Positions 4,196 through 41,607 of a stretch of DNA of 48,904 nucleotides are shown here, piece after piece. A program made the translations under genes and the position numbers. Each line of letters opens with the position of its first letter. The first letter of the stretch is position 1. This DNA comes from Neolewinella lacunae (GTDB taxonomy: Bacteria; Bacteroidota; Bacteroidia; Chitinophagales; Saprospiraceae): positions 1 through 48,904 of the forward strand of contig NZ_JACSIT010000048.1 in the NCBI RefSeq assembly GCF_014349155.1, read 5' to 3'. Below the pieces are notes generated by a model, which saw only the letters and a program-made list of their open reading frames with translations, ran no database searches and was not told where the DNA came from.

Positions 4196-4213
4196 GCACC
4201 TGCGGCCGCGCCC
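4196..4213 (+). repeat. Dispersed 18-bp repeat, copy 1
   Basis: Exact gcacctgcggccgcgccc on the plus strand, preceded by ccctt as at 20107. It lies 146 bp before the ATG of the ABC ATPase gene and 68 bp after the hairpin at 4079-4127. Confidence 0.9.
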
Positions 4214-4359
4214 AAAGCGACCTGATCCCGAACGGAGGAAATGAGCCTGGTAGCGAATTGCGGAGGGATAAAACAACAAAAATCTTCGCGGCACCTTACC
4301 TTGTGCACCAGCCAATATTCTCCAGGAATGGCTGCCCCCAGACTGCCAATGACCAGCCC

Positions 4360-4986
4360 ATGCTCGAAACTACTGACCTGGCCTACCGCTATCCCGGCGG
4401 CGAAAGCCTGACATTTCCCAACCTGCGCTGTGCCCCCGGGGCCACCCACCTGCTGCTCGGAAAATCGGGCAGCGGCAAAACAACGCTGCTGCAGTTGCTG
4501 GCCGGACTGCGGTCGCCGAGCCACGGAAAAGTGGTGGTGAACGGTACGGAGTTGGGCAAACTCTCAACGGCGGCGCTCGACCAGTTTCGCGGACAAAACA
4601 TCGGGATGGTGTTCCAGACGGCGCACTTTGTCCGCTCCGTCAATGTGGAGGAAAACCTGGTTTTGGCGCAGCGCCTGGCGGGCAAAACCACCGACCGCCG
4701 CCGCATCCGTGAACTGCTCGATGTGCTGGGGCTGGGCGAAAAACTCCGGAGCCTGCCAGCGCGCCTGAGCGTGGGGCAGCAACAACGCGCGGCCATCGCC
4801 CGGGCAGTGATTAACCAACCGGCGCTGATGCTGGCCGACGAGCCTACTTCGGCCCTTGACGACGACAACGCCAGCCAAGTCCTCGGCCTCCTCCAGCAAC
4901 AGGCTGCGGCCGTTAACGCCACCCTGATCATCGTCACCCACGACAATCGCCTGACCGGCATCATCGACCAACGCACCCACCTATGA
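4360..4986 (+). CDS. ABC transporter ATP-binding protein, LolD/MacB type
   Basis: This 208-residue cytoplasmic ATPase would power the permease encoded next to it. Walker A is GKSGSGKTT (about 34-42) and the Q-loop is in MVFQ. The signature is LSVGQQQR in place of LSGGQ, Walker B is ALMLADEP and the switch histidine is in VTHD. The order and spacing match the LolD/MacB/FtsE group of mechanotransmission ATPases. The ATG at 4360 was preferred to the longer frame from 4174 because the family starts directly before MLETTDLAYRY. Its stop overlaps the permease start as ATGA, implying translational coupling. Confidence 0.88.
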   Translation: MLETTDLAYRYPGGESLTFPNLRCAPGATHLLLGKSGSGKTTLLQLLAGLRSPSHGKVVVNGTELGKLSTAALDQFRGQNIGMVFQTAHFVRSVNVEENLVLAQRLAGKTTDRRRIRELLDVLGLGEKLRSLPARLSVGQQQRAAIARAVINQPALMLADEPTSALDDDNASQVLGLLQQQAAAVNATLIIVTHDNRLTGIIDQRTHL

Positions 4987-6326
4987 ACCTTCTGGCACTG
5001 GCATGGAAAAACCTGGCTTACAAGCCCCTGACGGCCCTGCTCAGCGTCCTGCTCTTTGCCCTCAGTATTGGCCTCATCTCCCTGCTGCTCAACCTGCGGG
5101 AACAGGCCGACGAGCAGTTTGACAACAACCTGGCGGACATCGACCTGGTGGTGGGGGCCAAGGGAAGCCCCCTGGAATTGACCCTGAACAGCATGTACCA
5201 CGTGGGGTACGCCACCGGCAACGTCAGCCTGGGCCAGGTCAAAGCCTTTTTTAATCCCCAGCACCCCATCGTGGCTGACGCGATTCCGCTGTCTTTGGGC
5301 GACAACTACGGCGGCTACCGCATCGTTGGAACGATCCCGAAAATCCTGGACTGGTACGGCGCGCAAGTGGCCACGGGAGCCGCCTGGAAAGAAGATTTCT
5401 CCGTGACGATTGGCGCAGAGGTGGCCAGCAAATTACACCTGGACGTTGGCAGCACTTTCCGTTCCACCCACGGCATCCTCGACGAGGGCGAAGACAATAT
5501 TGAGCACGACGACGAATTTAAGGTAGTCGGTGTCCTGGCCCCCAGCGGCACCGTGCTCGATCAGCTGATCCTGACCACCAACCAAACCTACTGGCACACC
5601 CACGAAGACCACGGGCCGGAACCCACCACGCCAGCGCAGGACACCAGTGCACTAGCCGACCATGACCACGATCACGAGCATGACCACGATCACGAACATA
5701 ACCATGATCATGACCACGATCATGCTGGTCATGACCATAGCCAGATTGGCAGCTTACTGGAGGAGGGGGCCGAGAAGGAAATTACCAGCGTTTTGGTGCG
5801 CTATAAAAACGCCAGCAGTTTCCAGGCGCTGAGTTTTCCGCGGAACATCAATGAAAATACCGAGTTACTGGCGGCCAACCCGGCTTACGAAATCAGCGAG
5901 GTGCGGCGGCAGTTTGATTCGGGGCAACGCATTTTGGGCATTCTGGTGCTGGCCATCACCTTTGTTTCGGCACTGAGTATTTTTATCGCGCTGTTTTCGT
6001 CCCTGCGGGAGCGGAGGTATGAGTTGGCCCTGCTGCGGGTAATGGGGGCGAGCCGGCCAAAGCTCTTTGGCCTCATTATTTTGGAAGGGCTTACGGTGGC
6101 GGTGCTGGGCTACGTCCTGGGCCTCCTCCTTAGCCACGGGATTCTTTACCTGGTAGCTGCCAATATCGAGGATGATTTCCGTTACCAACTCGATCCACTG
6201 CGTTTTCTCGCAGCCGAAGGCTGGCTTCTGCTCGGGGCACTTGGGATTGGGTTCGTGGCGGCGGTATTGCCAGCCATCCAAGCGGCGCGGACGGATATTG
6301 GGGAGGTTCTGACATCAGATGTTTGA
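4983..6326 (+). CDS. FtsX-like ABC permease with histidine-rich loop
   Basis: The 447-residue protein has an N-terminal membrane segment (about 15-37) and a large periplasmic domain. A C-terminal FtsX module has three membrane segments (about 317-345, 365-390, 410-435), including RYELALLRVMGAS. Residues 227-252 form a run of alternating Asp/Glu and His with 13 histidines, a likely zinc- or other metal-binding loop. FtsX-type permeases of this subgroup occur beside zinc-regulated genes in Proteobacteria (Zrg-type loci), so a metal-linked role is plausible but inferred. The stop codon lies inside a cagatgt heptamer array. Confidence 0.82.
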   Translation: MNLLALAWKNLAYKPLTALLSVLLFALSIGLISLLLNLREQADEQFDNNLADIDLVVGAKGSPLELTLNSMYHVGYATGNVSLGQVKAFFNPQHPIVADAIPLSLGDNYGGYRIVGTIPKILDWYGAQVATGAAWKEDFSVTIGAEVASKLHLDVGSTFRSTHGILDEGEDNIEHDDEFKVVGVLAPSGTVLDQLILTTNQTYWHTHEDHGPEPTTPAQDTSALADHDHDHEHDHDHEHNHDHDHDHAGHDHSQIGSLLEEGAEKEITSVLVRYKNASSFQALSFPRNINENTELLAANPAYEISEVRRQFDSGQRILGILVLAITFVSALSIFIALFSSLRERRYELALLRVMGASRPKLFGLIILEGLTVAVLGYVLGLLLSHGILYLVAANIEDDFRYQLDPLRFLAAEGWLLLGALGIGFVAAVLPAIQAARTDIGEVLTSDV

Positions 6327-6350
6327 TGTCAGATGTCAGATGTCAGATGT
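6316..6350 (+). repeat. Heptamer tandem array (cagatgt) over a stop codon
   Basis: Five 7-bp units, four reading cagatgt and one ttgatgt, start inside the last codons of the permease gene and run past its TGA. Unit number changes would alter the protein tail. Confidence 0.7.
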
Positions 6351-6360
6351 GCGGCTGGTT

Positions 6361-6377
6361 CCGGACGTCTCGTCCGG
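6361..6377. repeat. Hairpin CCGGACG-TCT-CGTCCGG
   Basis: A perfect 7-bp stem with a 3-base loop just after the heptamer array. A degraded relative (ggatccgaacctctggtccgg) lies near 43164-43184, so it may be a small palindromic repeat. Confidence 0.5.
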
Positions 6378-6410
6378 CCATCCATCGGGTAGAAATCATC
6401 AAAGGGCAAT

Positions 6411-6471
6411 AAAAAAGCCTCCGATATGCTCTTGCGCTGACGAGGTCAGGCGCAGAAAGCACATCGGAGGC
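6411..6471 (-). terminator. Rho-independent terminator of the small gene at 6494
   Basis: Read on the minus strand, a long stem (GCCTCCGAT...ATCGGAGGC, extended by GCGC and CTGAC/GTCAG pairing inside) is followed by six T residues. It lies 22 bases after the stop of the 68-residue protein gene, exactly where an intrinsic terminator is expected. Confidence 0.8.
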
Positions 6472-6493
6472 TACAAGGTAAGAGAGAAGGCAA

Positions 6494-7057: not shown

Positions 7058-7750
7058 TTAATCTTCTTCCAGCAGCGCGTGAATGTGGGCAAAAAAGGCA
7101 TTTTGGTCTTGGTAATCGGTGATGACGCGGCGGGCACCGTGGCGTTGGAGGGTGGCGTGGTCTCCGGCCAGGCGGACGCCGAGGAAGGGAATGTTCATGG
7201 CGCGGGTGGTGGTGAGGTCCCAAAGGGCATCGCCGACGTAGACGACGCGGTGGATGGGGTGTTCGGCCTGGGCCAGGGTGATGGCGCGTTGGAGAATGTC
7301 TTCGCGGCGGTGCATGTCGTTGGCGTAGGCGGCGTAGGGTGGGTTAGGGGGGATGCCTACGTGGGCGAGTTTGATGGCGGCGGGACGTTGCCAGCCACCG
7401 GTGGCGATGCCGATGGTGTAGTTCGGGTCTTCGGCCAAGCGGTGCCAGAGGGCCACGGCTCCGGGTACTTCCCTGCTTATTCCCGGGTCCTTGCCCCGCA
7501 CCTGCGTCAGCGCCCCCAAATAGTGCTCCTCAAAGCGCTCGCGTTCCCCGGTAGTGGGGTAGCGCCCGAAATGCGCGTGGAAGGCGGTGCGGAAGATGAC
7601 GTGGTCGGTCACCGCCGGAAAGCGCGACCAATCGATGGTGGGAAAAGGGCGGCCAAAAATGCTGCCGTAACTGGCCGCGAAACAGCGGCTATCCACCTTA
7701 TCTGAATAGAGCAGGGTGCCGTCGATGTCGAAAAGGATGAGGATTTTCAC
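7058..7750 (-). CDS. HAD-superfamily hydrolase, phosphoglycolate phosphatase-like
   Basis: The 230-residue cytoplasmic protein carries HAD motif I FDIDGTLL (7-14, nucleophile Asp8) and a helical cap. A motif II-like GIATGG and motif III/IV region VVYVGDALWDLTTTRAM follow, with GDxxxD positions correct. It is most like phosphoglycolate phosphatase-type haloacid dehalogenase phosphatases, but the substrate cannot be read from sequence. The start codon is GTG at 7750, which places the conserved KILILFDIDGT strand at the N-terminus. It stands alone on its strand. Confidence 0.8.
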   Translation of the reverse strand: MKILILFDIDGTLLYSDKVDSRCFAASYGSIFGRPFPTIDWSRFPAVTDHVIFRTAFHAHFGRYPTTGERERFEEHYLGALTQVRGKDPGISREVPGAVALWHRLAEDPNYTIGIATGGWQRPAAIKLAHVGIPPNPPYAAYANDMHRREDILQRAITLAQAEHPIHRVVYVGDALWDLTTTRAMNIPFLGVRLAGDHATLQRHGARRVITDYQDQNAFFAHIHALLEED

Positions 7751-9979: not shown

Positions 9980-12484
9980 ATGGCCAAAGCGAAGAAAAAA
10001 AATCCCGGACAACTCGGCCTGCGGATGGGCTTGAAGGACGAACGCCTGCCGAAACTCTTCGGTGTGCTCCTGCTCATCTGTGCCGTCTACCTGGGCGTAG
10101 CCTTTCTTTCCTACCTTTTTACCTGGAAGGTAGACCAGGACCGTGTGCTCCGCTTCAGCTGGAAACTGCTGTTGGCCGATGGCCCGACGGTGGATAACTG
10201 GCTGGGCCGGCTCGGCGCCTTCCTCTCCAATTTCTACATCTACTACCTCTTCGGCCTACCCAGCTTTGGCCTCATTTACCTGCTGTGGATGCTGGGGCTT
10301 AACCGCCTGCGTCGGCAACCCCTGCGTTTGATGGGAACTTTGTTCGTCAAAGTCATGCTTGCCATTCTCGCCCTGGCCGTACTCCTGGAGTTTGCGGTGG
10401 GTGGCTGGATGCAGTTCCCCATTGGCGGCGGCATCGGTAAATACCTGGTCGATCACCTCACCGGCGTCCTTGGCAGCTTTGGCGTCATCCTGTTGCTGCT
10501 GGCCCTCGTCGGCCTTTACCTGGTCTTCGAGGCCCGGATCGACTTCAACGGCTCCCCCCGGCAGATCCGGACGGACATCGTCGATCACTTCTCGGAACGC
10601 ATCCGCTTCCGTGGCAAACCGAGCCCGGAACGCTTTGATGCACCCGGCACCGGCTCGGCCTTCTCCGCTCCTTCCAACCCTCCCCTGGCACCTGCGGCCG
10701 CGCCCCCGCCACCAAAATCCGCCCCCGGATCGCTTTCGCCGGGCGACGGAAGCATCTTTGAAGTGGACGGACCGGAGCTGGAGACCGACCGCGATTTCGA
10801 GCAGCCCCGCGGCAGCCAAATGAAGATGCCCCTCGATGCGGTAGGCGACCTGACGCTCGTCAGCCACGACCCCCTCTCGATCGGCAAAGACAATCTCATC
10901 ATTGCCGACGGCGACACCGGCATCGACACCAGCCTGGCCGTGACGGAGGAGAACCAGGATCACTCCGAACCCTACGACCCGACCCTCGACCTGCCCAGCT
11001 ACGAGTCTCCCCACCTGCAGCTGCTGCTCGACCGCGAAAGCGGCAAAGCGGAGGTGGACCGTGCCGAACTGGAAACGAATAAGGACCAGATCATCGAGAC
11101 GCTGCTCAACTACAAAATTGAGATTACCAAGATCCGCGCCACCATTGGCCCGACGGTAACGCTCTACGAGATCGTCCCTGCCCCCGGCGTCCGGATTTCC
11201 CGCATCAAGAACCTGGAAGACGACATCGCCCTTTCCCTGGCCGCGCTCGGCATCCGCATCATTGCGCCCATCCCCGGTCGCGGGACCATCGGCATCGAGG
11301 TACCCAACAAGAACCCTCAGATGGTGGGGATGCGGGAAGTCCTGGAAAGCGAAAAATTCCGCACCGCCAAGATGGATCTTCCTTTGGTACTGGGGAAAAC
11401 CATCAAAAACGAAGTGTTGGTGGCTGACCTGGCCAAAATGCCCCACTTGCTCGTGGCCGGTGCCACTGGCCAGGGTAAGTCCGTCGGTATCAACTCCATC
11501 ATCATGTCGCTGCTTTACAAGAAGCACCCCTCACAGGTGAAGCTCGTCATGATCGACCCCAAGAAGGTGGAACTCTTTCCCTACGCCAAGCTGGAAAGCC
11601 ATTTCCTGGCCTTTTTGCCCGGGCAGACGGAGCCCATCACTACGGAAACGACCAAGGTCATCCACATTCTCAACAGCCTCTGTATTGAGATGGACCAGCG
11701 CTACGACCTGCTCAAAAAAGCAGCGGCGCGCAACATCAAAGAGTACAACGAAAAGTTCGTGGCCCGCCGCCTGAACCCGGAGAAGGGGCACAAGTTTTTG
11801 CCTTTCATCGTGCTGATCATCGATGAGTTTGCTGACCTCATCATGACCGCTGGTAAGGAGGTAGAGATGCCCATCGCCCGCCTGGCCCAGCTCTCCCGTG
11901 CCGTCGGCATCCACCTCGTCATTGCCACGCAGCGGCCTTCGGTAAACATCATCACCGGCGTAATCAAGGCCAACTTCCCGGCCCGCATTGCCTACAAAGT
12001 GACGGCCAAAGTCGACTCCCGCACCATCCTCGACGCGGGCGGCGCCGATCAGCTCATCGGCCGCGGTGATATGCTGCTCTCCAACGGCGGCGACGTCGTT
12101 CGTCTCCAGGGTGCCTTCATCGATACCCCGGAAGTGGAGGAAGTCATTGATTTTATCGCCAACCAGCGCGGCTACGTTGAGCCCTATCTGCTGCCCGAAT
12201 ACAATACGGACGAGGAAATGGCTGGCTCCAGCGCCCTCACTTACGCCGACCTCGACGATATGCTGGAGGACGCCGCCAAGCTCATCATCCAGCAACAACA
12301 CGGCTCCACCAGCATGGTGCAGCGCCGCCTCAAACTGGGCTACAACCGCGCCGGCCGCATCATGGACCAACTCGAACAACTCGGCATCGTAGGCCCCGCC
12401 GTCGGCTCCAAACCCCGCGAAGTGCTCGTGTACGACGAACAGGAACTCATCCGCTTCATCGATGATTTGCGGAACCGAGGGTAG
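9980..12484 (+). CDS. ftsK: DNA translocase FtsK/SpoIIIE
   Basis: This septum-located DNA pump couples chromosome dimer resolution and segregation to division. The 834 residues show four or five N-terminal membrane segments (about 20-190) and a Pro/Ala-rich linker (about 220-255). Then come the alpha/beta motor with Walker A GATGQGKS (about 493-500) and Walker B VLIIDEFADLIM, and the gamma winged-helix domain (about 765-830, MVQRRLKLGYNRAGRIMDQL) that reads polar DNA sites. The ATG at 9980 precedes MAKAKKKNPG; the longer frame from 9803 lacks sense. A TACTTTCG sequence at 9956-9963 may be its -7 box. The linker contains an exact copy of the 18-bp repeat, read as APAAAP. Confidence 0.95.
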   Translation: MAKAKKKNPGQLGLRMGLKDERLPKLFGVLLLICAVYLGVAFLSYLFTWKVDQDRVLRFSWKLLLADGPTVDNWLGRLGAFLSNFYIYYLFGLPSFGLIYLLWMLGLNRLRRQPLRLMGTLFVKVMLAILALAVLLEFAVGGWMQFPIGGGIGKYLVDHLTGVLGSFGVILLLLALVGLYLVFEARIDFNGSPRQIRTDIVDHFSERIRFRGKPSPERFDAPGTGSAFSAPSNPPLAPAAAPPPPKSAPGSLSPGDGSIFEVDGPELETDRDFEQPRGSQMKMPLDAVGDLTLVSHDPLSIGKDNLIIADGDTGIDTSLAVTEENQDHSEPYDPTLDLPSYESPHLQLLLDRESGKAEVDRAELETNKDQIIETLLNYKIEITKIRATIGPTVTLYEIVPAPGVRISRIKNLEDDIALSLAALGIRIIAPIPGRGTIGIEVPNKNPQMVGMREVLESEKFRTAKMDLPLVLGKTIKNEVLVADLAKMPHLLVAGATGQGKSVGINSIIMSLLYKKHPSQVKLVMIDPKKVELFPYAKLESHFLAFLPGQTEPITTETTKVIHILNSLCIEMDQRYDLLKKAAARNIKEYNEKFVARRLNPEKGHKFLPFIVLIIDEFADLIMTAGKEVEMPIARLAQLSRAVGIHLVIATQRPSVNIITGVIKANFPARIAYKVTAKVDSRTILDAGGADQLIGRGDMLLSNGGDVVRLQGAFIDTPEVEEVIDFIANQRGYVEPYLLPEYNTDEEMAGSSALTYADLDDMLEDAAKLIIQQQHGSTSMVQRRLKLGYNRAGRIMDQLEQLGIVGPAVGSKPREVLVYDEQELIRFIDDLRNRG
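10688..10705 (+). repeat. Dispersed 18-bp repeat, copy 2 (inside ftsK)
   Basis: Exact gcacctgcggccgcgccc, in frame with ftsK as Ala-Pro-Ala-Ala-Ala-Pro in the variable linker between the membrane domain and the motor. Confidence 0.9.
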
Positions 12485-12487
12485 AAT

Positions 12488-12541
12488 AAAGGGGGAAAGG
12501 ATGAAAGGAATAAAGGGGGAAAGGAGGAAAGGAATAAAGGG
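12488..12541 (+). repeat. Octamer array (aaaggnnn) after ftsK
   Basis: Seven 8-bp units (aaaggggg, aaaggatg, aaaggaat, aaaggggg, aaaggagg, aaaggaat, aaaggggc) begin 3 bases after the ftsK stop and run into the next 18-bp repeat copy. Confidence 0.7.
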
Positions 12542-12557
12542 GCGCGGCCGCAGGTGC
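12540..12557 (-). repeat. Dispersed 18-bp repeat, copy 3
   Basis: Exact copy on the minus strand. It lies 43 bases from a hairpin repeat (12601-12665) in the same order and orientation as seen at 41455-41607. Confidence 0.9.
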
Positions 12558-14801: not shown

Positions 14802-15866
14802 TCAGTGTGCGCTGGCCGTTGCCGTCAGGTTTTCCAAAATTTCCGTCCACTCCGGCAATTCCGGCTGACCGGGCTTGCGTGCACCGAAGAAATAAGTGAT
14901 CATCTCGCCCCGGTCATCGAAGAGTTCCAGGCTGGTGACGATGCCGTCTTCGGTGGGTTTGCGCACTACGTAGGCCGTGGCAATTGCTTCCGTATCCAGG
15001 TGCAGGTTGAAAGCGGGATCAAGTACATTGAACCACTTGCCCATCCATTTAAGGTGCTTTACCGGTCCGCTGTGAATCTGGATGCAGCCGCTGCTGTGCA
15101 CGAAGCACATAATCGGTACCGCCCGTTCGGCTGCAGCTGTCAGAATCTGCTCCACGGCCAGTCGGTCAACCGGCGTGACCATCCCCGCTGGCGCCAGGCG
15201 CAGGGCCTGGGTACGGGTAAGCTGGTGCTTGCGCAGGAGACCAAAGAAGTGGTGGGTGTCTTTCAGGTTGCGCCATTCGTCCTGGAAAATGTCCAGTTCG
15301 ACCTCTTCGTCCGGGCGTTCTGCTTCCGGACTGGGGGCCTCGCGATTTTCCAGAATGATCGCTTCCTGGGGGCCAGTGTATTTTTCGATCAGGTAGGCCC
15401 AGCCCAGCATGTCGCTCTGCGGGGTGGTATAAATTTTGTGGACCGCCTCGCCCCTGGCGTTGAAAAATTGGAGACCGTGCAGGTCACCCCCCTTCTCGCG
15501 ACGCATGATGACCGCCAGGCCGTAGACCCATTCGTTCATGAACAGCCGCAGGTCGATATCAGGGTTTACCGCCACGCCCATGTTGTGGGGACCGTCGTAG
15601 AAGGTGATGTTGTCATAAACGCCTTTGCGTTCGTGGACGACGTGGTCGTTGCGCGTCAGGGCCATTACGTGGCCGAGGCGAAGAACGTCTTTGAGGAGTG
15701 CTTTGAAGTCGCCGCCGAGACGAATGACGTTCTCTCCCAGGCCGAGGCTGACGAGCTCGGCTTCGCTGATGCCCAGGCGCTCGGCCTGGTCGCGGGCGCG
15801 GAGTTGGGGTTCGGCAGTACGGAGCTGTTCGAGGCGCTCACGCAGGTGCAAAGTATGGTCTTTCAT
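14802..15866 (-). CDS. hmuS: Haemin-degrading/haem-trafficking factor HmuS/HemS
   Basis: This cytoplasmic protein binds incoming haem and is reported to degrade or deliver it. The 354 residues match the two-repeat HemS/ChuS fold. The N-terminal half has the helical start and HERKGVYDNITFYDG followed by the repeat-one strands. The C-terminal half repeats the pattern, with IMCFVHSSGCIQIHSGPVKH and WFNVLDPAFNLHL, typical of HemS proteins. It starts 29 bases inside the hmuV frame, so the two are translationally linked, and precedes the receptor gene by 17 bases. Confidence 0.9.
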   Translation of the reverse strand: MKDHTLHLRERLEQLRTAEPQLRARDQAERLGISEAELVSLGLGENVIRLGGDFKALLKDVLRLGHVMALTRNDHVVHERKGVYDNITFYDGPHNMGVAVNPDIDLRLFMNEWVYGLAVIMRREKGGDLHGLQFFNARGEAVHKIYTTPQSDMLGWAYLIEKYTGPQEAIILENREAPSPEAERPDEEVELDIFQDEWRNLKDTHHFFGLLRKHQLTRTQALRLAPAGMVTPVDRLAVEQILTAAAERAVPIMCFVHSSGCIQIHSGPVKHLKWMGKWFNVLDPAFNLHLDTEAIATAYVVRKPTEDGIVTSLELFDDRGEMITYFFGARKPGQPELPEWTEILENLTATASAH

Positions 15867-16656
15867 AAGGCAATGTTGTGATGAGGGGACCCGCGTAGTG
15901 GGGGTGCTCCTGAATGAGGCAGTCCACGTCGAAGGTATCCCGGATGGTGGTTCGGGTCAGGATGGCGTGGGTGGGCCCGGAGGCCAATACCCGCCCGTCG
16001 CGGAGGAAGATGATCTCGTCGGCAAAGCGTGCCGCAAGGTTTAAGTCGTGCAAAACGGCGAAAACCCCCAGCCCCCGTTTGCGCGCCAGGCTGGTGGCCA
16101 AGTCAATGAAGCGGAACTGCTGCCCGATATCGAGCGCAGCGGTGGGCTCATCCAGCAACAGGTAGCGGTTGCCGGAGGGAGCGGCAGGATCGGCGTCCAG
16201 TTGCAGCAGGCATTTGGCCAGTAACACCCGCTTTTGCTCGCCGCCGGAAAGGGTGGGGAAGGAGCGGTCGCGGAAAGGCTGCAAGTCCAGCAGCGTCAGG
16301 TAGTGATCGATCCGGGCGGTACGCTGCCTGGCCGTCCACTGCTGGTAACGGGCGTAGCAGCCCATCTCGATAACCTCGGCAACGGTGAGGGGAAAGCTGA
16401 GGTGAACGGACTGGGCCAACACCGCCCGCTTCGCCGCCAATTCTTCCGGGGGGAGCGCAGCCAGGCATTGCCCGTCCACTTCCACTGCACCTGCGTCCGC
16501 GCCCACCGAACCCGCCAGGCACTGCAAAAGCGTACTCTTGCCCGCACCGTTCTGGCCCATGACAACGGTTACCTGGCCCGGACGCACCGTACAGCTGACC
16601 TGGTCCAGGATCGCCCGGCCACCGAGGTGGAGGCTTAGTCCCTTGGCGCGCATCAT
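15838..16656 (-). CDS. hmuV: Haem ABC transporter ATPase HmuV
   Basis: The 272-residue ATPase of the haem importer carries Walker A GQNGAGKST (about 34-42), signature LSGGEQKR, Walker B YLLLDEPTAALD and switch VLHDLNLAARFADEI, as in FepC/HmuV proteins. The start is one of two adjacent ATGs (16656 or 16653), overlapping the hmuU stop. A loop after Walker A contains a one-mismatch copy of the 18-bp repeat (16487-16504), read as GADAGA where relatives have an ordinary turn. The gene overlaps hmuS by 29 bases. Confidence 0.92.
   Translation of the reverse strand: MMRAKGLSLHLGGRAILDQVSCTVRPGQVTVVMGQNGAGKSTLLQCLAGSVGADAGAVEVDGQCLAALPPEELAAKRAVLAQSVHLSFPLTVAEVIEMGCYARYQQWTARQRTARIDHYLTLLDLQPFRDRSFPTLSGGEQKRVLLAKCLLQLDADPAAPSGNRYLLLDEPTAALDIGQQFRFIDLATSLARKRGLGVFAVLHDLNLAARFADEIIFLRDGRVLASGPTHAILTRTTIRDTFDVDCLIQEHPHYAGPLITTLPYERPYFAPA
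16487..16504 (+). repeat. Dispersed 18-bp repeat, variant copy (17/18, inside hmuV)
   Basis: Reads gcacctgcgtccgcgccc, with one g-to-t change that destroys the NotI core. It adds codons GADAGA on the hmuV strand. Confidence 0.65.
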
Positions 16657-20106: not shown

Positions 20107-20124
20107 GCACCTGCGGCCGCGCCC
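20107..20124 (+). repeat. Dispersed 18-bp repeat, copy 4
   Basis: Exact copy preceded by ccctt, 20 bases beyond the stop of the AI-2E transporter gene. Confidence 0.9.
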
Positions 20125-21232: not shown

Positions 21233-21265
21233 CGGCCGTGGGAAGCCCGCGGGAGGTTTGTTTTG

Positions 21266-21361
21266 TAGTCTGGTGGTTTGGTGGTTCGGTAGTTCGGTAG
21301 TTCCGTAGTTCGGTAGTTCGGTAGTTCTGTAGTTTGGTAGTTCTGTCGTCTGGTAGCTGAG
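21266..21361 (+). repeat. Octamer array (tagttcgg), 12 units
   Basis: Twelve 8-bp units fill the space upstream of the AI-2E gene; most read tagttcgg with changes at two or three positions. The first and last units are the most diverged. Confidence 0.75.
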
Positions 21362-22958: not shown

Positions 22959-22976
22959 GGGCGCGGCCGCAGGTGC
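22959..22976 (-). repeat. Dispersed 18-bp repeat, copy 5
   Basis: Exact copy on the minus strand, between the stop of the sugar dehydrogenase gene and the terminator-like hairpin. Confidence 0.9.
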
Positions 22977-27309: not shown

Positions 27310-30300
27310 TTAGCGCAAAACCATCACTTCGCCTGCTTCTTTTACCACTTCGCCGGTGAAAAGGCGGACTTCCACCACGTAGACGTAGACCCCCAGGTTG
27401 GGGTCCCGGCCGGGTAAGGTACCGTCCCAGGCCGCCAGGGCATCCTCCGGATCCCGGTCTTCGGCCAGGAAGACGCGGCCTCCCCAGCGGTCGTACACCG
27501 CTAGTGTAAGGATGCGCTCTACCGCCGGACCCGGGAAAATCCGGAAGAAGTCGTTGACCCCGTCGCCGTTCGGACTAAAAGCATTGGGAACGTAAAAGAG
27601 GTTGTCGCGCAAGACCCGGATCGTGGTTTCATCCGTCGCTACGCAGGCCCGGTCGTCGCTCATCGTCACGTTGACCACGACCGTGGAGACCGGCCGCAGG
27701 GTGAGGCTCGGGCAGGCCCGGCAGCTGTCGCCAAGGCTGCTACCCCAGGTCAAACTGACGCCCGCCGGCAGGTTGCTGATCGGCACAACGTTGACCGAAT
27801 CGCCGAAGCGGATGCTTTGGTCTGCGGGCAAATTGATGAACAAAGGCGCTGCTACCCCCACGCTGAAGGCCAGTTGTTGGGTACAGCCCTGGGCGTCGGT
27901 GGCCCAAAGTTCGTAGTTGCCGGGGGCCAGACCCGTGCGGAGGCTGTCCTCGAAAACCGTAGTTCCTCCGTCGAGGCTGTAGCTGTTGCCCAACGTGCCA
28001 CCGCTGATGCGTAGAATGCCGTCGTTTTCACCGGGGCAAGTCTCCGCTTCCGCCGCAATGCTGATGGGGCGGAAGGTGGCGGAGCTGATCGTCAGGGTCT
28101 CGGTGGCGGAACAGCCGTCGTCGGTGGTGACGGTGACGCTGTAGTCGCCGGCGGGCAGTCCAACGATGCTGCTCGTCAAATCCCCGGTGTTCCAGCGCAC
28201 GACGAACGGACGTCCATTGCTGTTGACCAGGACTTCCCCGGCACCTGCGGCCGCGCCCCCACAATCGGGGTTCAGTTCGCGGGTGCTGATCGTCAGGTTC
28301 GCCACTTCGAGCAAAACGCGGTGGGTGCTGTCGCAGCCATTGGCGGCCGTTTGCCGGTCTTCGTAAAGACCCGCCGTCCGCCGAAACTGGCCGAACAAGA
28401 AGACGGAATCGCCCTGGCAAATGCGCAGCGTATCCGACCGCAGCGGCGTCTCCAAAATCTCCAGGCGGATGACCACTGTGCTGTCGCAGCCATTGGCCGC
28501 GGTAAAGGTCTGACTGTACTCACCCGCTTGGGTCGTGGGGCTGCCAAAAATGTCCACTGCCGTACCCGCGCAGGCTTGTACGGTATCCCGTAGCAGCGTT
28601 TCGGGCAGCTCAAAAACGTCTAAAGTGTCGGTTCTTTCACAGCCGTTAACGGTCTGAACAGCAAGGTATTGACCGGCGCTGAATAAAGTGTTTTCGCCAA
28701 AGATTACACTGTCTCCCGGACAAAGAAAGGCACTGTCGCGCAGGCCCGTGAGCGGGAAGATACGCACACGGATGCTGTCGGAGCTGATGCAGCCCGGACC
28801 GAGGTCGGCCGAGACCAGCAAAAGGGTATCCGCCGTGGGCGCGAAGCGGATTTCGGGGCAGTTCGTGCAGTCGATGAAACTGCTTTGCGACCACTGGTAA
28901 TTGCTGAATCCACTGAGTTGAAAGCGGAGGGTATCGCCCGGGCAAATGGTGGTGTCGCGGCCGAGATCGATCTCCGTTACGGGGTTGATGGATACCCGCA
29001 CGGTATCGCGTTGCACGCCGCCGCAGGAGTCGGTCGCCACCACCCAGTAGACACCCGCGTCGTAGGCGGTAAAACGCTTTTCAGTACTGCCATCCACCCA
29101 CTCGTAGCTGGCAAATCCGTCCTGGGCCAGCAGCGGAATTACGGCGTTGCTGCACAGCACCGTATCGGGGCCGAGCTGGAGATTGGGGCGCGGCCGCAGG
29201 TGCAAAGTGAGGGTATCCGAAGCAATGTTCCCACACGAGTCGGTCACCTCCACCCAGTAATCTCCAGGCTGATCGATGGCGATGCTGTCCGTCGTTGCGC
29301 CGGTCGACCACAGGTAGGTCACTCCGCTGCGGTTGGTCTGGGCACCCAACAATTCCCCCGGGCAGAGGCGGGCGTCCGGCCCCAGGTCTACCGTCAGGGA
29401 ATCAAGGCAACAGCAGTCGGTGACCAGGTCGGGGTCTTCACAGTCCACAAAACCGTCGTCGTCGTCATCGATGCCGTTGTCGCAGATTTCTGGTACAGGA
29501 CAATCCGGTTGGCAAGAGGCAGCGGGATCAAGGAAGAGGGGGAAGTCCCCAAAGGTGGCCGTGTTGCTGAAGAATGCAACACCCAAATCGAGGTCGTTCT
29601 GAATAAGTTCCTCTCTACTTCGTGAACCGCTCAGAACTGGAAATATGGTTAAAGTCTCCTGATCAACGGGCTGACAAAATTCTGCTCCCAGCTGGGTAAT
29701 GGCGTGCCCCACCAGCACCGGCCCTCCGGTAAGCGTGTTGCGCCCTGCGATCAAGACGTGACTTTCGTCGGTCGCCATGCTGCTTTTAGCGGTTTCCGTG
29801 GCAGGTCCCCAGTTCTTGTATTCTAGCCCACGTTCAGATATGTTCGTAAAAAGCACATGGGATCGCGTTAATTCGTTGTAGGCTAAGTTGATGGGGCCAG
29901 AGTTTGGTGGATACGCAAAGTCGTGCAGGCGGTAATTAAACGCATTTCCAAAAAACGTTATAGTCAATCTTCTTGTATAATCTTCCGTAATGTCAACAAG
30001 AAAATTCTGGCCCGCAATTTGAGCAAAAGGTGTTTGCTGCGCTGGATTAGCACCTACAACAAGCACAATGGCATTGGCAGGTCCAATACGATAATTTTCT
30101 TCAAGGTGAAGAAATGCCCCTCTATCTTGGGGGATGGTATCATCGCTTAAGGTAAAATCCCACAGCGCCCTACTCCAGCCCACCGAATTATCCGGCCGGA
30201 TAAGCGTCAGCACCGCCCGTGATTGCTGTGGCTCACGGAGGGTGGTGACGGTATACACATTCCCGTTGCGTGGATCTACCACGGCGTCTGCTATGCCCGT

Positions 30301-33848: not shown

Positions 33849-34084
33849 TCACTGAGTTACCCTATGCGACTTGTGCTCTCCTTAGTACCTCTTCGTGCAC
33901 TTAGTGGTTCAAAACCAGAACCGTAAGGTTCCCTCGCCTTGAGTTACCCGACGTAAAGTGTGCCCTCCTTAGTACCTCTTCGTGCACTTAGTGGTTCAAA
34001 ACCAGAACCGTCAGGTTTCCTCCAAAACCGTGTGGTAGAAAACCAGAACCGTCAGGTTCCCTCCAAAACCGCAAGGTTCCAAAA
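33849..34084. repeat. 87-bp tandem duplication with degenerate tail
   Basis: Two identical 47-bp blocks (33878-33924 and 33965-34011) are 87 bases apart, and gagttaccc precedes both. The tail repeats aaaccagaaccgtcaggtt and aaaaccgcaaggttc up to the lpdA stop. Confidence 0.7.
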
Positions 34085-35566: not shown

Positions 35567-38500
35567 TCAATTTCTCGCCCCTTTCACCTGCTCATACTGC
35601 CTACGGACTTCGGGGAAGTCGACCATCTTATCCATGTAGTCCCGGATGGGTTTCGCCAGCAGGCGGCCCAGGGGCGGCATGACGGTAAAAACGGAGTCCC
35701 GGCGCAAGTGCGCATTGATCAGGTGGTTGAGACTGTCCGTTTGCTGGGGCAGGTTCGGGACCTTAAGTTCTCCACCGAGGAGGGAGAAAACATCGTCGCC
35801 CTGCAAGCGGAAGGGCAGGTTAATGGTCACGTATTCATCCAGGATGCCCAGCTTTTGCGCCAGACTGTCACGCAGGTAATCGTCCCAGGCGATGGGGACG
35901 CCAGAGATGCCCGTGTTAAGGGCTACCCCCGTGTTGGCACTGAACTCCGACTTATAAGGGTAGCGGTTCATGCTATCCAACTGATCGAGAAAGGCATCGC
36001 GCACGTAGCGCGAAGCAGCGTTGCGAATGCTCAGTAAAACGATCTTCCGGGCGAAGAAACGGCGGTAGAGGGAATCCGCTGTCGTGTCGTTAAACTCCCG
36101 GGCTTTGAGCGTCCGCAGCAGGCTGTAGGCACTGTTGATGCCGGAGTTATCGGCGTTACCCGCGTCCAGAAAATGGCCTTTGCCGGTGATGCGGGCGGCC
36201 GGACTGGCAATGGGGAAACGGTTGGACAAGAAGGTGGCGTCGGGGTAGGAAATGAAATCCCGGTCGGCATTGCGCGTCAGGTCAATGGTTTCTACCAGCG
36301 GGTTTTCGGCGAGGGGCGTGACGGTGCCCAGCAGGCCGTCTTCCGCCCGGGCGGTATTGATGATGAGCAGGGGAAGGTCAGGCTTCTGGGTCCAGGGCCA
36401 GTAAAAGGGCTGCTGGCGGATGCGCGCGTATTCGTAGCCGCCGCCCTTTTCACCCACGATGCGGAAGTAGGCGTTGGCCATCGCGTCCATGCGGTCGTCG
36501 TAATGGTGGGCTTCCAGGCCGGGCAGGTCGGGCCAGTAGTTGACGGGGAAGCGGCAGAGCAGGCCGGTGAAGTCGCCACTCAGGTAGTTCCCCTGGCCGA
36601 TGCGTTCGATGTATTCCCGGATGTCTTCCACCGGCAGGTTCTGGGCCTTGAGGTAGTTGTACATCGAAAGGCCGATGGTTCCGCCGCTGGCTCCGCTGAG
36701 GGCAAAGACGTGGCCGTCGTAGAGCCCCATTTCATCGAGTTCCAGCAAGTTGAGCATCGTCCAGTAGCAGGCCTTAAGCCCACCGCCGTCGGCGGTGATG
36801 AAAATGATGGGCCCTTGCTCCGCAGTGTCGGCGAGGAAATTGCGGGTGTAATCTTCCAAAGTGGGTGGACCCAGTTGGGCGGCCTCCAGGGCTGCGCCGG
36901 ATTGGTAGCGGATCTCGTGGTAGCTGTTGCCCAGGTAGGCCGTGGCCAGCAGCACTCCGATGATGACCCAACCCCAGACGAGGTTGGCCTGGCTAAGGCC
37001 GGGGTCGGCTGGGGTGGGCTTGCCCTGGGCGCGAAGGGACACTTGCCGGTAGTGCTGCCGCAAATTGTAAAGCATCACCAGCCGGTCGGCCAGGATGAAA
37101 AAGGCCAGTAATCCATTGATCAGCAGCAGGTAAATATTCAGGGGGTTAATTGCCCCAACCAGGCTTGAAGCTATCGCCCGCTCCTGCGTCAGCGCCCAAA
37201 TAAAAAAGCAAAATGCAATTAGAAATACTGCCGTCATTAAGGTCAGCATCGACTGGATGGTCAGGTGGTCCAGCCGGTCCATAAAGCCATCGCTGGGGAA
37301 GCGTTTTTTGCCATCCTGCCGATTGAAAGTATATCCCTGGTAAAATGGCCGGTAAATACCCAGCCACGCAAAAGATATCACCGAACAAGCCAGAAACCCG
37401 AGAAACCAGGCGAAACTCCGGTACCAGGGCGTCGCTTCGGAAACCAGCAAAGTAAGCCGCAAAAAAGCCAGTAGCGCCACCAATAAAATGCCAAAACCGA
37501 ACCAGAAAGAAAAGCGATCTTTTACGAAATAAACCGCCTCGGATTCCCGACGATAAATTTCTCCCTGCGCATTTCTTTTGTCCACCGCCCGCTCGCGCAA
37601 CCGCGCCCAGATGCCCAGTTTTGCATCTTCGGCGACGACCACAAACGGGCGCATCACCCGGTTTTCCGGTCGCTGGGCCAGGGTCGTGATGCGGAGGGAA
37701 TAAATGATGTACGCGAAGGCAAGCAGCCCTACGAAGGGTGCCAGGTAATCGCCCCAACTGCTGGGTTGCGGCTGGTTATCGAAATAAATATGGCTGGCGA
37801 TGCTGACCAGCGTGAGGATATACAGCAGGGCCAGGACGGCCCGGACCCGGTGAAAAGCCGCCGGGGGATAAGAAATCATGCCGGTTGCCCGCGGCATGAA
37901 GTCGGCGGGCGGTTCCCCGGGCAGCAGGCGATCGAGCTGCGGAAAGAGCCGCTTGTGGAGAAATGCCCAGGCCAGCAGCCGGGGCGCCCGGCGGTAGCGC
38001 TTGTCGCGGTCGTAAATCCGGTCAATCAGGTCCCAGGTCTTAAAACGGTTGGAAAATTGCTGGTCGGTAAACATCAGGTAATTCGGCGCAAACCAGATTA
38101 TGACGATGGACACCGGGAAAAGGAAAAGGGAAAAAAGGAGGAAATTGGCCCGCGAGTTCATCAGGTCAATGAACAGCCCGTCGAACTGGTCCATTTTCGT
38201 GAAAACAAAAAGAACGATGGCCAAAGACAAAATAGCCGGGTAAAAATATTTCCAGTAGCGCCGGGTAAAATCCCAGATGGGCCCACCAAAATCCTGCAAA
38301 AACCGCTGAATTACCAGGCCCATGCCGATAAAAACGCCCGCCAGCCGGCTGGTAATGGCTAGAAAATAAATGACGCGGAAAAGGCTTCCTTCGAGCGGTT
38401 TTTCGGGGTATTCGAGCCGTTGGGCGTAGTAGTAAAATAAGGCAACGTTGCTCAGCAGCATGACTACGTAAATGCCCGTAATGATGCGCACGTAGCCCTC

Positions 38501-38950
38501 AGAACCGGGAGCGACGCGAAAGCTGAAGTAGCGCGTATCCACCCAGGTGGGATCATCTGGCGAAGGTTGGATGTAGCTGCCGTGACAAAGCCGGAAAGTA
38601 TACCACAGGAAAATGGTCAGCACGATTACGAATGCCAGACTGAGGTAAAAACTGATGCCGCCGAGTTCGACAATCCGTGGAATGGCCCAGGCGGAGAGCT
38701 CATCCAGCAGATCGAGGTAAGAAGTAATTAAGGGGGAAACGGCGGGAGGGTTGCTCACGAAAAACAGCAGCAGGGTGGCCGCCAGCAGCACGCCATAAAT
38801 CCAGCCTCGGCGGCCTTCGCCGGGAGACATCCACCACCTGACGAGTTCGCGCGTCGGCGGCGGCGCGGCCGTCTTCCGCGCGGAAGTTTCTGCCAATTCA
38901 GGCTGGACGGGATAGCTTTGGTACGTTTGGATGGGTGTGTTTTTCTGCAT
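35567..38950 (-). CDS. Polytopic membrane protein with C-terminal patatin-like phospholipase
   Basis: The 1127-residue protein has roughly a dozen hydrophobic helices in residues 60-700, including two copies of a similar helix-pair pattern. A patatin domain follows: oxyanion loop ITADGGGLKA near 720, nucleophile elbow LSGASGGTIG near 752 (G-x-S-x-G) and the dyad Asp in FLDAGNADNSG near 927. Patatins hydrolyse acyl esters of phospholipids. The enzyme would act at the inner membrane, but the roles of the membrane half and the substrate are unknown. The ATG at 38950 was preferred because the longer frame to 39070 reads through the 18-bp repeat. It ends 85 bases before lpdA. Confidence 0.78.
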   Translation of the reverse strand: MQKNTPIQTYQSYPVQPELAETSARKTAAPPPTRELVRWWMSPGEGRRGWIYGVLLAATLLLFFVSNPPAVSPLITSYLDLLDELSAWAIPRIVELGGISFYLSLAFVIVLTIFLWYTFRLCHGSYIQPSPDDPTWVDTRYFSFRVAPGSEGYVRIITGIYVVMLLSNVALFYYYAQRLEYPEKPLEGSLFRVIYFLAITSRLAGVFIGMGLVIQRFLQDFGGPIWDFTRRYWKYFYPAILSLAIVLFVFTKMDQFDGLFIDLMNSRANFLLFSLFLFPVSIVIIWFAPNYLMFTDQQFSNRFKTWDLIDRIYDRDKRYRRAPRLLAWAFLHKRLFPQLDRLLPGEPPADFMPRATGMISYPPAAFHRVRAVLALLYILTLVSIASHIYFDNQPQPSSWGDYLAPFVGLLAFAYIIYSLRITTLAQRPENRVMRPFVVVAEDAKLGIWARLRERAVDKRNAQGEIYRRESEAVYFVKDRFSFWFGFGILLVALLAFLRLTLLVSEATPWYRSFAWFLGFLACSVISFAWLGIYRPFYQGYTFNRQDGKKRFPSDGFMDRLDHLTIQSMLTLMTAVFLIAFCFFIWALTQERAIASSLVGAINPLNIYLLLINGLLAFFILADRLVMLYNLRQHYRQVSLRAQGKPTPADPGLSQANLVWGWVIIGVLLATAYLGNSYHEIRYQSGAALEAAQLGPPTLEDYTRNFLADTAEQGPIIFITADGGGLKACYWTMLNLLELDEMGLYDGHVFALSGASGGTIGLSMYNYLKAQNLPVEDIREYIERIGQGNYLSGDFTGLLCRFPVNYWPDLPGLEAHHYDDRMDAMANAYFRIVGEKGGGYEYARIRQQPFYWPWTQKPDLPLLIINTARAEDGLLGTVTPLAENPLVETIDLTRNADRDFISYPDATFLSNRFPIASPAARITGKGHFLDAGNADNSGINSAYSLLRTLKAREFNDTTADSLYRRFFARKIVLLSIRNAASRYVRDAFLDQLDSMNRYPYKSEFSANTGVALNTGISGVPIAWDDYLRDSLAQKLGILDEYVTINLPFRLQGDDVFSLLGGELKVPNLPQQTDSLNHLINAHLRRDSVFTVMPPLGRLLAKPIRDYMDKMVDFPEVRRQYEQVKGARN

Positions 38951-39023: not shown

Positions 39024-39041
39024 GGGCGCGGCCGCAGGTGC
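39024..39041 (-). repeat. Dispersed 18-bp repeat, copy 8
   Basis: Exact copy on the minus strand in the divergent promoter region between the patatin and pyrophosphatase genes, 74 bases from the patatin start. Confidence 0.9.
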
Positions 39042-39082: not shown

Positions 39083-39112
39083 TGTCCCCTTCCTATCTCA
39101 TCCTTCCTCCCT

Positions 39113-39778: not shown

Positions 39779-39780
39779 GT

Positions 39781-39806
39781 AGAAAAGTTTCAAATTTTAC
39801 TTTTCT
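39781..39806. repeat. AT-rich inverted repeat AGAAAAGT...ACTTTTCT
   Basis: Perfect 8-bp arms around a 10-base loop start 3 bases after the pyrophosphatase stop. It could be a weak terminator, though it has little GC. Confidence 0.4.
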
Positions 39807-39873
39807 GCATACCTTTTCCTAAACCAATTGCGTTAAGTAGGGGCTAAAAACCACCGTTTGCTAAACGGATTTC

Positions 39874-39934
39874 GCAAAAAGTTGTTAAAACTTCAGCACT
39901 TTAGGCAAAAAGTTGATGCTAAATGGAACTTTAA
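39874..39934 (+). repeat. 31-bp direct repeat upstream of the RlpA gene
   Basis: gcaaaaagttg occurs at 39874-39884 and 39905-39915, each followed by aacttcagcacttta-like sequence. It may be a regulatory leader, but no known element was recognised. Confidence 0.4.
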
Positions 39935-40021
39935 GCAGTTTTGGCCTTTAATTTGTGCTGAGAATATGGTCAGAAAGCCCGGTCTTCCCCCCGGGATCCA
40001 ATTATAATCCCTTCTATACGC

Positions 40022-41314
40022 ATGAAATACGTTCTCTCCTTGATCGCCTTTGGCGTCCTTTCCACCGCGAGCGCCCAGAATTTCGAGTGGAATACCAAGT
40101 CTGCCGCTGCGCATCCTAACGAGGTGCAGCCAGGTAGCGTTGTACCCAATTCCTACGATCAGGCGTACAACCAACGGCAAATGGGGCTGGCGGGGATGTA
40201 CAATCCCGGTGCCCACGGCAGTCGCACGGCCTACGGGGAAACGTACAGCAACCGCGAACTGACCGCCAGCCACGGCTTGCTGCCGCTGGGTACGATGATC
40301 CGGGTAACCAACCTGGAGAACAACCAGGCCGTAACCGTACGCGTGAACGACCGGGGCCAGGAATGTGCCGACTGTCTGGTGATGCTCTCCCAGGCCGCCG
40401 CTACGCAGTTGGGCATCAACTACCGGGCGCGCGTCAGTGTGGAGCGCATCGGCTTTAGTAACTGGAATCCCGCTCCGGCGGCGGCCGTAGTTCCGGGGCC
40501 GGCAGACTACAACCACCCGCAGACCTACGCCTACACGCCCGCGCAGGGTGGGGTAGTGCGGCCGGTAACGGTTGATGGCCAAACCTACGGCTGGGATGCC
40601 CGCGGTGGCGACATCATCGTGACGCCCCCGACTTACGGCTCGGTACCCTCAACGCCCACAAACTACGCCACCCTGAATGCGCCAGCCAATACGCGCAACT
40701 CAGTGATGTCCCGCGAAGTGACTCCTTCCGGTCGTTCGGGTGAACCCCTGACCTACAGCCGCTACCCCGGCACGGTTACGCCGCAGGCCACCAACGTCGC
40801 TCCGCCGGTCTACCAGCCGGTAAGCCAGCCCCAGGCCTACGGTACTTACCCCTCTATGTCCACGGAAGGGCAGCAACCCGCTTACCAGCCGGTTCCCCGC
40901 AGCACGTCTCCTGGTCAGGTCGCTCCGCCCGCCCCGACGGTACAGCGCTACCAGTCGCCTCAAGTGGTGGCTACGCCGCAGAGCTACGGTACGCCCGCGC
41001 CCGCGACCTACCAGATGGCGAAGTCGGTGGAGCCCGTAGCTTACGCTGCGCCCACTGTCCAGGCCGCTTCACCCGTTGCTGGCTACGTAGTGCAGATCGG
41101 CGCTTACAACAACGAACTTTACGCGAAGAACCGCGTAACCCAGTTGGCCGCCGCTGGCCTCAACAACGTCTTTTACCTGTCCTCGAACAAGGCTGACGGA
41201 CAGGTCATCAACCGCGTGTACGTGGGCACTTTCTCCTCCATGGCGGAAGCCCAAACGGCAGCCAACGACATCCGCAATACCCACCAGATTGCGGGCATCG
41301 TGACGCGGATGTAA
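40022..41314 (+). CDS. rlpA: RlpA-like lytic transglycosylase with SPOR domain
   Basis: The 430-residue exported protein (signal MKYVLSLIAFGVLSTASAQ) has an RlpA double-psi beta-barrel (about 53-140) with GMYNPGAHGSRTAYGETYSN, His84 in ASHGLLPLG and Asp110 in VRVNDRG, the residues RlpA uses to cleave denuded peptidoglycan. A long low-complexity Pro/Tyr/Gln linker (about 150-345) leads to a C-terminal SPOR domain (about 350-430, YVVQIGAYNNELYAKNRV) that targets septal glycan. It probably works in daughter-cell separation. The linker length is greater than in Escherichia coli RlpA. No other division gene is adjacent. Confidence 0.88.
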   Translation: MKYVLSLIAFGVLSTASAQNFEWNTKSAAAHPNEVQPGSVVPNSYDQAYNQRQMGLAGMYNPGAHGSRTAYGETYSNRELTASHGLLPLGTMIRVTNLENNQAVTVRVNDRGQECADCLVMLSQAAATQLGINYRARVSVERIGFSNWNPAPAAAVVPGPADYNHPQTYAYTPAQGGVVRPVTVDGQTYGWDARGGDIIVTPPTYGSVPSTPTNYATLNAPANTRNSVMSREVTPSGRSGEPLTYSRYPGTVTPQATNVAPPVYQPVSQPQAYGTYPSMSTEGQQPAYQPVPRSTSPGQVAPPAPTVQRYQSPQVVATPQSYGTPAPATYQMAKSVEPVAYAAPTVQAASPVAGYVVQIGAYNNELYAKNRVTQLAAAGLNNVFYLSSNKADGQVINRVYVGTFSSMAEAQTAANDIRNTHQIAGIVTRM

Positions 41315-41400
41315 GCAGCAAAAGATTGAATGAAAAAGCGGACCTCGCCTGGGTGGTGGGGTCCGCTTTTTGTTTTTTGGGTGGAGGAGGTCTATCCACC

Positions 41401-41518
41401 ACCCCGGGATTTCGGATGCTTTGCATTTTTTGGTGGAGTAGGTTCCTCCTCCACCCCCGGATTTCGGATGCTACGCATCCTGCATCCGGGGTTATTAAGG
41501 TTCGACCCCTACGGGGTC
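41401..41518 (+). repeat. REP-like palindromic element (one partial, one full copy)
   Basis: A partial unit (41401-41425) and a full unit (41455-41518) match the pair at 12601-12707 in the same order. The full unit ends in the hairpin gacccctacggggtc; the other locus has a one-base longer loop with the same stem. Confidence 0.8.
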
Positions 41519-41589
41519 TGGCGGGCTGGTGATGGGTCTTGGTAGGGCTTGGCGTTTTTGTCCAATCTTTGCTACTTCGCACTTCCCCG

Positions 41590-41607
41590 GCACCTGCGGC
41601 CGCGCCC
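41590..41607 (+). repeat. Dispersed 18-bp repeat, copy 9
   Basis: Exact copy 71 bases after the REP-like unit and one base from the stop of the DUF58 gene. Confidence 0.9.

Follow-up and report, generated by a model that had tools for sequence, protein, structure and literature searches.

The 48,904-bp contig NZ_JACSIT010000048.1 of Neolewinella lacunae (the window, meaning the whole stretch of DNA analysed here) carries nine exact copies of an 18-bp element that recurs across the genome of this bacterium and across most of its genus. The element is a genus-wide, maintained tag of self-DNA. It is abundant, balanced between the strands and evenly spaced, has dialects, arises by substitution, decays after loss and is tolerated within genes. 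This combination makes it probable that it serves as a DNA uptake (self-recognition) sequence, labelling DNA of its own genus to be imported and recombined. Such a signal would most likely be of a pilus-independent, possibly directional variety. The genome of the window (G000) was compared with 20 genus-mates (21 genomes in total) and with 39 genomes of other genera; the stretches read in G000 comprise the first 448,904 bases and, in the final sample, 1,140,112 bases. Motif counts are given against the reversed motif as control.

Abundance and anatomy of the element

An earlier note on this DNA, written from the letters of the window, had proposed a genome-wide count of the 18-mer. At up to two mismatches we find 1,260 copies in G000 (624 and 636 on the two strands), as against four for the control. 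In the first 448,904 bases, matches with 0, 1, 2 and 3 mismatches number 60, 33, 18 and 15 (control 0, 0, 0 and 2). The perfect form is thus commoner than the one-off forms, as for a maintained sequence. Searching the 1,140,112 bases with a refined core, GCACCTGCGnnnGCGCCC, gives 314 sites at up to two mismatches (239, 42 and 33 with none, one and two), compared with 17 for the control, all of them with two mismatches. As to a phage origin, which is not favoured, 22 stretches of a viral collection contain an exact match.

Fifteen positions of the core are nearly fixed among sites chosen at no more than one mismatch, while the central triplet is variable: the 239 exact cores have GCC (141), TCC (31), ACC (11), CCC (10) and others. 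The octamer GCGGCCGC is found in 141 of these 239 sites; a palindromic octamer core of the HIP1 (highly iterated palindrome) type was not found. We also rejected the NotI palindrome as the functional core, which is frequent and not necessary, because the central triplet varies.

Conservation outside the core is one-sided, as seen in logos of 153 of 155 G000 sites (two near stretch ends were left out). A pyrimidine-rich flank of about 27 bp lies on the 5' side, and the 3' side shows little conservation. The flank is rich in C and T, avoids A from about −21 to −14 and favours C at −9, −8 and −4. The earlier note was correct in describing a partly conserved 5' flank, and this conservation extends to about −27.

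Immediately 5' of the core, 25 of the 153 sites carry a CCCCCCTTCGGGGGG-type hairpin and a G-run, never within genes (for example at L023 17438(+) and L018 17394(−), both stretches of G000). Hairpin and core form a composite element. Of the 25 hairpin-joined sites, 16 have a GCTCC box at −42 or −41, and GCNCC is found at −20 to −18 in 30 cases among the 128 hairpin-free sites. This box is weak in other species.

Spacing and orientation of sites

Sites in G000 are spaced more evenly than random placement allows, with a coefficient of variation (CV) of 0.80 compared with 0.99, and none of 2000 placements was as low. Among neighbours at least 300 bp apart, opposite orientations (186) outnumber same orientations (84; p = 5e-10), and the median gap is 4.6 kb for the same and 2.9 kb for opposite orientation. 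The regularity resides within each strand. Same-strand pairs number 0, 4, 10, 19 and 29 at separations of 0–0.3, 0.3–1, 1–2, 2–3 and 3–4 kb, where 12.4, 28.8, 40.9, 40.6 and 40.3 are expected, and they are at expectation beyond 4 kb. Opposite-strand pairs lie near expectation except for −/+ pairs closer than 300 bp (26 versus 6.5). Same-strand intervals have a CV of 0.54, compared with 0.84 after strand shuffling (0 of 3000 as low). Each strand carries its own regular series of sites.

The exclusion was seen in none of 49 control k-mers, chosen with all motif neighbourhoods left out; in an earlier k-mer control, where the motif had not been left out of the choice, one of 16 candidates fell at or below it. 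Pooled data from six other species show the same pattern, with 4, 4, 13 and 18 same-strand pairs at separations of 0.3–1, 1–2, 2–3 and 3–4 kb (expected 17.4, 24.4, 23.9 and 23.4). Their opposite-strand pairs deviate somewhat at 0.3–1 kb, with 4 +/− and 19 −/+ pairs where 9.4 of each are expected. Taken singly, each of the six has more opposite than same orientations, at p < 0.05 in G013 and G017 only.

The two strands of G000 are balanced, with 154 of the 314 sites on the plus strand and near-equal counts on each contig (the contigs are not placed relative to the origin). This balance, overall and per contig, speaks against a replication-polar signal. The earlier note had taken the mixed orientation as evidence against any strand-polar role of the kind played by Chi or by the FtsK-orienting polar sequences (KOPS). 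The argument stands for a replication-polar signal such as KOPS; it does not extend to a directional signal, since each strand has its own even series.

The longest site-free gap seen, 20 kb (G000 C22:125951-145997), contains a 2236-aa gene and is lower in G+C (0.527). Giant genes or low-G+C DNA are found in further long gaps as well.

Distribution and dialects within the genus

Seventeen of the 20 genus-mates contain 109–1,362 matches each, compared with 31 in G006, 7 in G010 and 2 in G001; in no genome of the other genera (39 examined) are there more than three. Among the matches listed in named genomes, the exact 18-mer occurs at 80 loci, 55 of them in Neolewinella/Lewinella, 15 in other Bacteroidia/Saprospiraceae and 10 in unrelated bacteria. 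When 11 genomes were sampled with their own consensus, eight gave 8.9–30.8 sites per 100 kb with related spellings, and the motif-poor G001, G006 and G010 gave zero, zero and one hit.

The spellings form dialects. The exact form GCTCCYGCGNCCCCGCCC occurs 154 times in G004 and 111 times in G017, with 0–5 copies in the other 19 genomes. Another, GCACCYGCGGCAGCGCCC, occurs 454 times in G013 and 43 times in G000, with no more than 16 copies in the other 19; the control count is zero for both. G004 and G017, which have one dialect in common, come out as sisters (96/94) in a tree of FtsK. The motif-poor G001 and G006 are also sisters (96/99) and lie on the motif-bearing side; deeper forks are open and G010 forms a long branch. 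This placement among motif-bearing species points to loss of the motif in the G001/G006 lineage. A relaxed core at up to two mismatches gives 103 matches in G006 (control 73), 13 of them exact; the counts are 41 versus 50 in G001, 19 versus 15 in G010 and 69 versus 35 in G021, which belongs to another genus.

The assembly or adapter artefact that the earlier note had named as a possible refutation is excluded, since the element occurs in many species, is spelled differently among them and lies within genes.

The few copies with zero or one mismatch in G010 mostly form tight groups (C60:33367-40843, L279; C71:87683-88949, L280) with G000-like flanks, and were perhaps imported from a motif-bearing relative. 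Separately, the sample of G004 (L149, L176-L180) is strongly enriched in the 9-mers CTTGAGCCG and CGACGGCTT, which are unrelated to the motif.

Sites within genes

Genes were called with a home-made hexamer gene finder, so that genic and intergenic counts are approximate. In G000, 206 of the 314 sites are intergenic though only about 17% of the sequence is, and 108 (34%) are genic. Sites are mostly genic in G004 (29 of 37), G008 (25 of 36), G013 (31 of 47), G017 (28 of 34) and G020 (15 of 20), with 12 of 39 in G005. Sense (55) and antisense (53) genic sites are alike in number in G000, and a transcription terminator is not favoured.

Three genic sites lie in conserved folds, and the best solved homologues align through them without a gap: HmuV (4g1u; window 16487), an aminotransferase (6l1l; L022 5409) and an OmpA domain (9v99; L013 15428). 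In 5b57, the next HmuV match, eight additional residues lie close to the window-16487 site, and the query is therefore the shorter one there.

Within comEC, the site occupies homologous codons with its own spelling in each of G008 (GCACCGGCGGCCGCGCCC), G017 (GCACCTGCGTCCCCGCCC) and G004 (GCTCCTGCGGCCCCGCCC). The G006 version contains one additional base; the G001 gene call is too short for comparison. In the same region, a 426-aa gene of G008 can be aligned, with no gap at its site, to four orthologues in which the site is missing. The gene next in this region has a site at its signal peptide in G008, in G017 (one mismatch to the pattern used) and, more weakly, in G004; in G001 and G006 this site is eroded, with no gap across it.

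Of 20 ftsK genes, 17 have a site in the linker. Sixteen of these sites differ from the core by no more than two mismatches (that of G013 lies on the other strand), and that of G004 is in its exact dialect; the site is absent from G001, G006 and G010. Alignments through G000 sites to stretches of other genomes were obtained for only 3 of 155 sites, and 14 of the 16 alignments are of ftsK. Among phase-1 sense sites, 12 of 16 lie within 120 nt of the start, and 10 of these 12 encode (C/G)TCxxAQ, which we read as the end of a predicted signal peptide. By these alignments, it was base substitution and not insertion that gave rise to the genic sites examined in conserved regions; where the motif has been lost, such sites decay.

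Sites in the window

The nine exact copies have the places and strands given in the earlier note, as does the one-mismatch copy at 16487(+). The match at 7498-7515, described there as 15/18, is in fact 16/18, with two mismatches. Two further sites were found, 2326(−) with one mismatch and 37180(+) with three. The statement that chance would give essentially none holds, since the window has 13 matches at up to three mismatches and 100 dinucleotide shuffles gave a mean of 0.28 and a maximum of 2. The refined core at up to one mismatch gives 14 sites, including 15832(−). The closest neighbours are 3.2 kb apart on the same strand and 0.66 kb apart on opposite strands. The sites are:

2326..2343 (−): one mismatch to the 18-mer, exact refined core; within gene 1847-2386(−), encoding a predicted signal-peptide end (CTCDRAQ)
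4196..4213 (+): exact; intergenic between diverging genes, upstream of the ATP-binding cassette (ABC) transporter ATPase gene 4360-4986(+)
7498..7515 (+): two mismatches to the 18-mer, confined to its variable centre; within the HAD-hydrolase gene 7058-7750(−)
10688..10705 (+): exact; in the linker of ftsK 9980-12484(+), read as APAAAP
12540..12557 (−): exact; intergenic between converging genes, after ftsK
15832..15849 (−): refined core with one mismatch; at the start of the HemS-like gene 14802-15866(−)
16487..16504 (+): one mismatch to the 18-mer, exact refined core; within the HmuV-like ATPase gene 15838-16653(−), read as GADAGA
20107..20124 (+): exact; between genes, with the stop of the AI-2E transporter gene 20144-21220(−) 19 bp away
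22959..22976 (−): exact; intergenic, with a minus-strand gene on either side
28241..28258 (+): exact; within the 2108-aa gene 27310-33636(−)
29186..29203 (−): exact; within the same 2108-aa gene, 27310-33636(−)
37180..37197 (+): three mismatches to the 18-mer, one in the refined core; within gene 35567-38830(−)
39024..39041 (−): exact; intergenic between diverging genes
41590..41607 (+): exact; between genes, with the stop of the DUF58 gene 41609-42535(−) 1 bp away

The window also contains repeats of other kinds. Seven 39-bp tandem units occupy 43300-43650, and modules related to them recur about 1.2 kb apart over 43118-45859, where there are few confident genes. Arrays of 8-bp units lie at 21260-21355 (GTTCGGTA-like) and 12479-12538 (GAAAGGAATAAAGGGG-like); 9-mers similar to these arrays have some of the highest over-representation in G020. 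Just upstream of gene 34085-35482(−), an 87-bp unit is directly repeated, with part of a third copy (33853-34071), and 18-bp repeats at 5657-5722 encode an Asp/His-rich stretch in the FtsX/MacB-like gene 4983-6326(+).

Competence genes and a proposed mechanism

ComEC was found in all 21 genomes, and DprA and the helix-hairpin-helix family HHH_3 in 20 each, the miss being G009, which is 55% complete. The PilB/PilT ATPase family profile PF00437 gives partial, borderline matches in 20 of 21 genomes at E ≤ 0.001, and with this profile no convincing type IV pilus ATPase was found in the 21 genomes (pilins and secretin were not searched). Around comEC in seven genomes, five of which hold synteny, no gene is limited to motif-bearing species. 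A 708-aa frame in G010 (C115:8691-10592, L268-L270) contains three DUF5689 domains.

In Riemerella, a member of the same phylum, transformation involves ComEC, DprA, ComF, RecA, a helix-hairpin-helix protein and proteins of unknown function predicted to lie in the outer membrane or at the surface, and is inhibited by mutation of tonBA or tonBB (PMC8459023, PMC8383284). Neither paper uses the term 'uptake sequence' in its text. By analogy with Riemerella, a pilus-independent route of uptake is plausible in Neolewinella.

We tentatively suggest that such a system reads the long asymmetric tag in one direction and imports about 4 kb per site, with the two strands tiled separately and dialects separating species. 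An outer-membrane receptor would read the core and its 5' flank, and import would proceed one way from the site over a few kilobases. A second site on the same strand within this reach would be redundant and therefore lost. The DNA would pass through ComEC and be recombined with DprA and RecA. Lacking a convincing type IV pilus ATPase, the system would have a receptor and motor unlike those of Neisseria and Haemophilus, perhaps linked to TonB as suggested for Riemerella. Copies could be kept by molecular drive, site-bearing fragments entering preferentially and converting the chromosome, and dialects could arise as receptor and motif drift together.

Several observations weigh against an uptake sequence or against this form of it. 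ComEC, DprA and HHH_3 occur in motif-poor genomes too and do not separate them from the others; DUF5689, a family of Riemerella transformation, is found only in the motif-poor G010. No receptor was found among ComEC, DprA, HHH_3 and DUF5689, tested across the genomes. PF00437 reaches its cut-off in 11 of 21 genomes, though only over 82–84 of 370 positions and at 24.9–25.5 bits. The site in a 1058-aa gene of G017 and G004 falls within a variable-length loop and might there have arisen by insertion. As to spacing, same-strand pairs closer than 0.3 kb are not depleted in the six pooled species (6 versus 7.5), sites in G020 are clustered (CV 1.55), and those in G005 are not significantly even, nor are those of G013 and G004 taken singly. 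Finally, the orientation of known uptake sequences is reported not to matter (PMC1939737), so that they do not predict the strand rule. The same indifference means that this rule would set the Neolewinella system apart.

Alternative explanations

The strand rule might be a by-product, if recombination between close direct repeats removes the intervening DNA and inverted repeats have no such effect. This would produce the observed loss of same-strand neighbours and the neutrality of opposite-strand ones. Deletion between repeats of about 18 bp lying kilobases apart should, though, be very rare. Identity between sites is mostly confined to about 18 bp, yet same-strand pairs are depleted at 2–3 kb (0.47 of expectation) and still at 3–4 kb (0.72), which favours directional action over deletion of direct repeats. 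Deletion would also account for the spacing rule alone and not for the sites, and we consider it rather unlikely. An intracellular protein that organises or translocates the chromosome, loading or stopping directionally with each strand served every few kilobases, would fit the even, strand-specific spacing, the reach of about 4 kb and the asymmetric element with its one-sided flank. One would expect greater stability of a housekeeping architectural site than is seen here: three of 20 genus-mates are motif-poor, two of them nested in motif-bearing species, and dialects change fast within the genus. The balance of strands within contigs further indicates that the signal is not replication-polar. 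This explanation is unlikely in our estimate. Binding by a protein, one of the roles proposed in the earlier note, remains a candidate and forms part of the uptake-sequence reading.

Directional action over a few kilobases and self-marking with dialects could also reflect another route of transfer, such as packaging into particles resembling gene transfer agents, or mobilisation of the chromosome from numerous start sites. We know of no packaging or mobilisation system with hundreds of dispersed 18-bp sites, and regard this as very improbable. Marginally less likely still is a signal of the Chi kind, at which an exonuclease-helicase acting on broken ends would be redirected. Even, strand-specific sites on both strands would suit an enzyme entering from either side, but known Chi sites are 5–9 nt long, and the present element has a long flank besides the 15 nearly fixed positions of its core. 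A mobile repeat spread by a transposase, resembling repetitive extragenic palindromes (REP) and their paired forms (REPIN) or miniature inverted-repeat transposable elements, was the minimal mobile repeat of the earlier note. The excess of inverted −/+ pairs closer than 300 bp (26 versus 6.5), the Y1_Tnp genes in 20 of 21 genomes and the C-rich hairpin joined to 25 of 153 sites would agree with it. Against this, sites replace codons without gaps in homologue alignments, most are genic in five of six other species, the nearest sites lie 2.4–4.4 kb from both Y1_Tnp genes of G000, which resemble REP-associated tyrosine transposases (RAYT), and Y1_Tnp is also present in the motif-poor G001, G006 and G010. 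Mobility of this kind is highly improbable.

Comparison with known systems

Uptake sequences have been described from Neisseriaceae and Pasteurellaceae (see also PMC2346458). To our knowledge no uptake-type sequence has been reported before in Bacteroidota, and none for Saprospira, Neolewinella, Lewinella or Bacteroidota was found in the open-licence PubMed Central literature. If the uptake-sequence reading is correct, self-DNA recognition would have evolved independently in another phylum, apparently without type IV pili, suggesting repeated evolution with different machines. Strand-specific exclusion, if it reflects directional import, would be a readout of import direction and reach from genomes alone and could be sought in the classical systems. 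The motif-poor sisters G001 and G006 would offer a natural experiment on loss.

The DNA uptake sequence (DUS) of Neisseriaceae resembles the element in having hundreds to thousands of copies on both strands and species dialects (PMC3630211). In both, inverted pairs lie between genes, and about a third of G000 copies are genic, close to the 34–42% reported for Neisseria (PMC2397512). It differs in length, a 10–12-mer compared with 15 fixed core positions and a long one-sided flank. Neolewinella also belongs to another phylum, has no convincing type IV pilus ATPase and shows strand-specific exclusion of neighbours.

The uptake signal sequence (USS) of Pasteurellaceae likewise has a core with a conserved one-sided extension, sites in genes and even spacing (Karlin et al., as cited in PMC1939737 and PMC2238722). 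Its sequence is unrelated. Neolewinella further differs in showing the strand rule, in that no type IV pilus was found with PF00437, and in a lower density of one site per 3.6–4.6 kb, compared with about 1 kb for USS (PMC7811141).

Other dispersed elements are less similar. REP/REPIN sequences with their RAYT genes are also short dispersed repeats with inverted pairs between genes, but the Neolewinella element is non-palindromic, formed by substitution, genic in a third to most of its copies and, in G000, without a transposase gene nearby. HIP1, a palindromic octamer of cyanobacteria, is comparably abundant within and between genes, whereas this element is long and asymmetric with strand-specific spacing. 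Chi and KOPS are dispersed short sites that act strand-specifically, as this element may. Both are shorter, and KOPS is polar along the replichore, in contrast to the balanced strands of Neolewinella.

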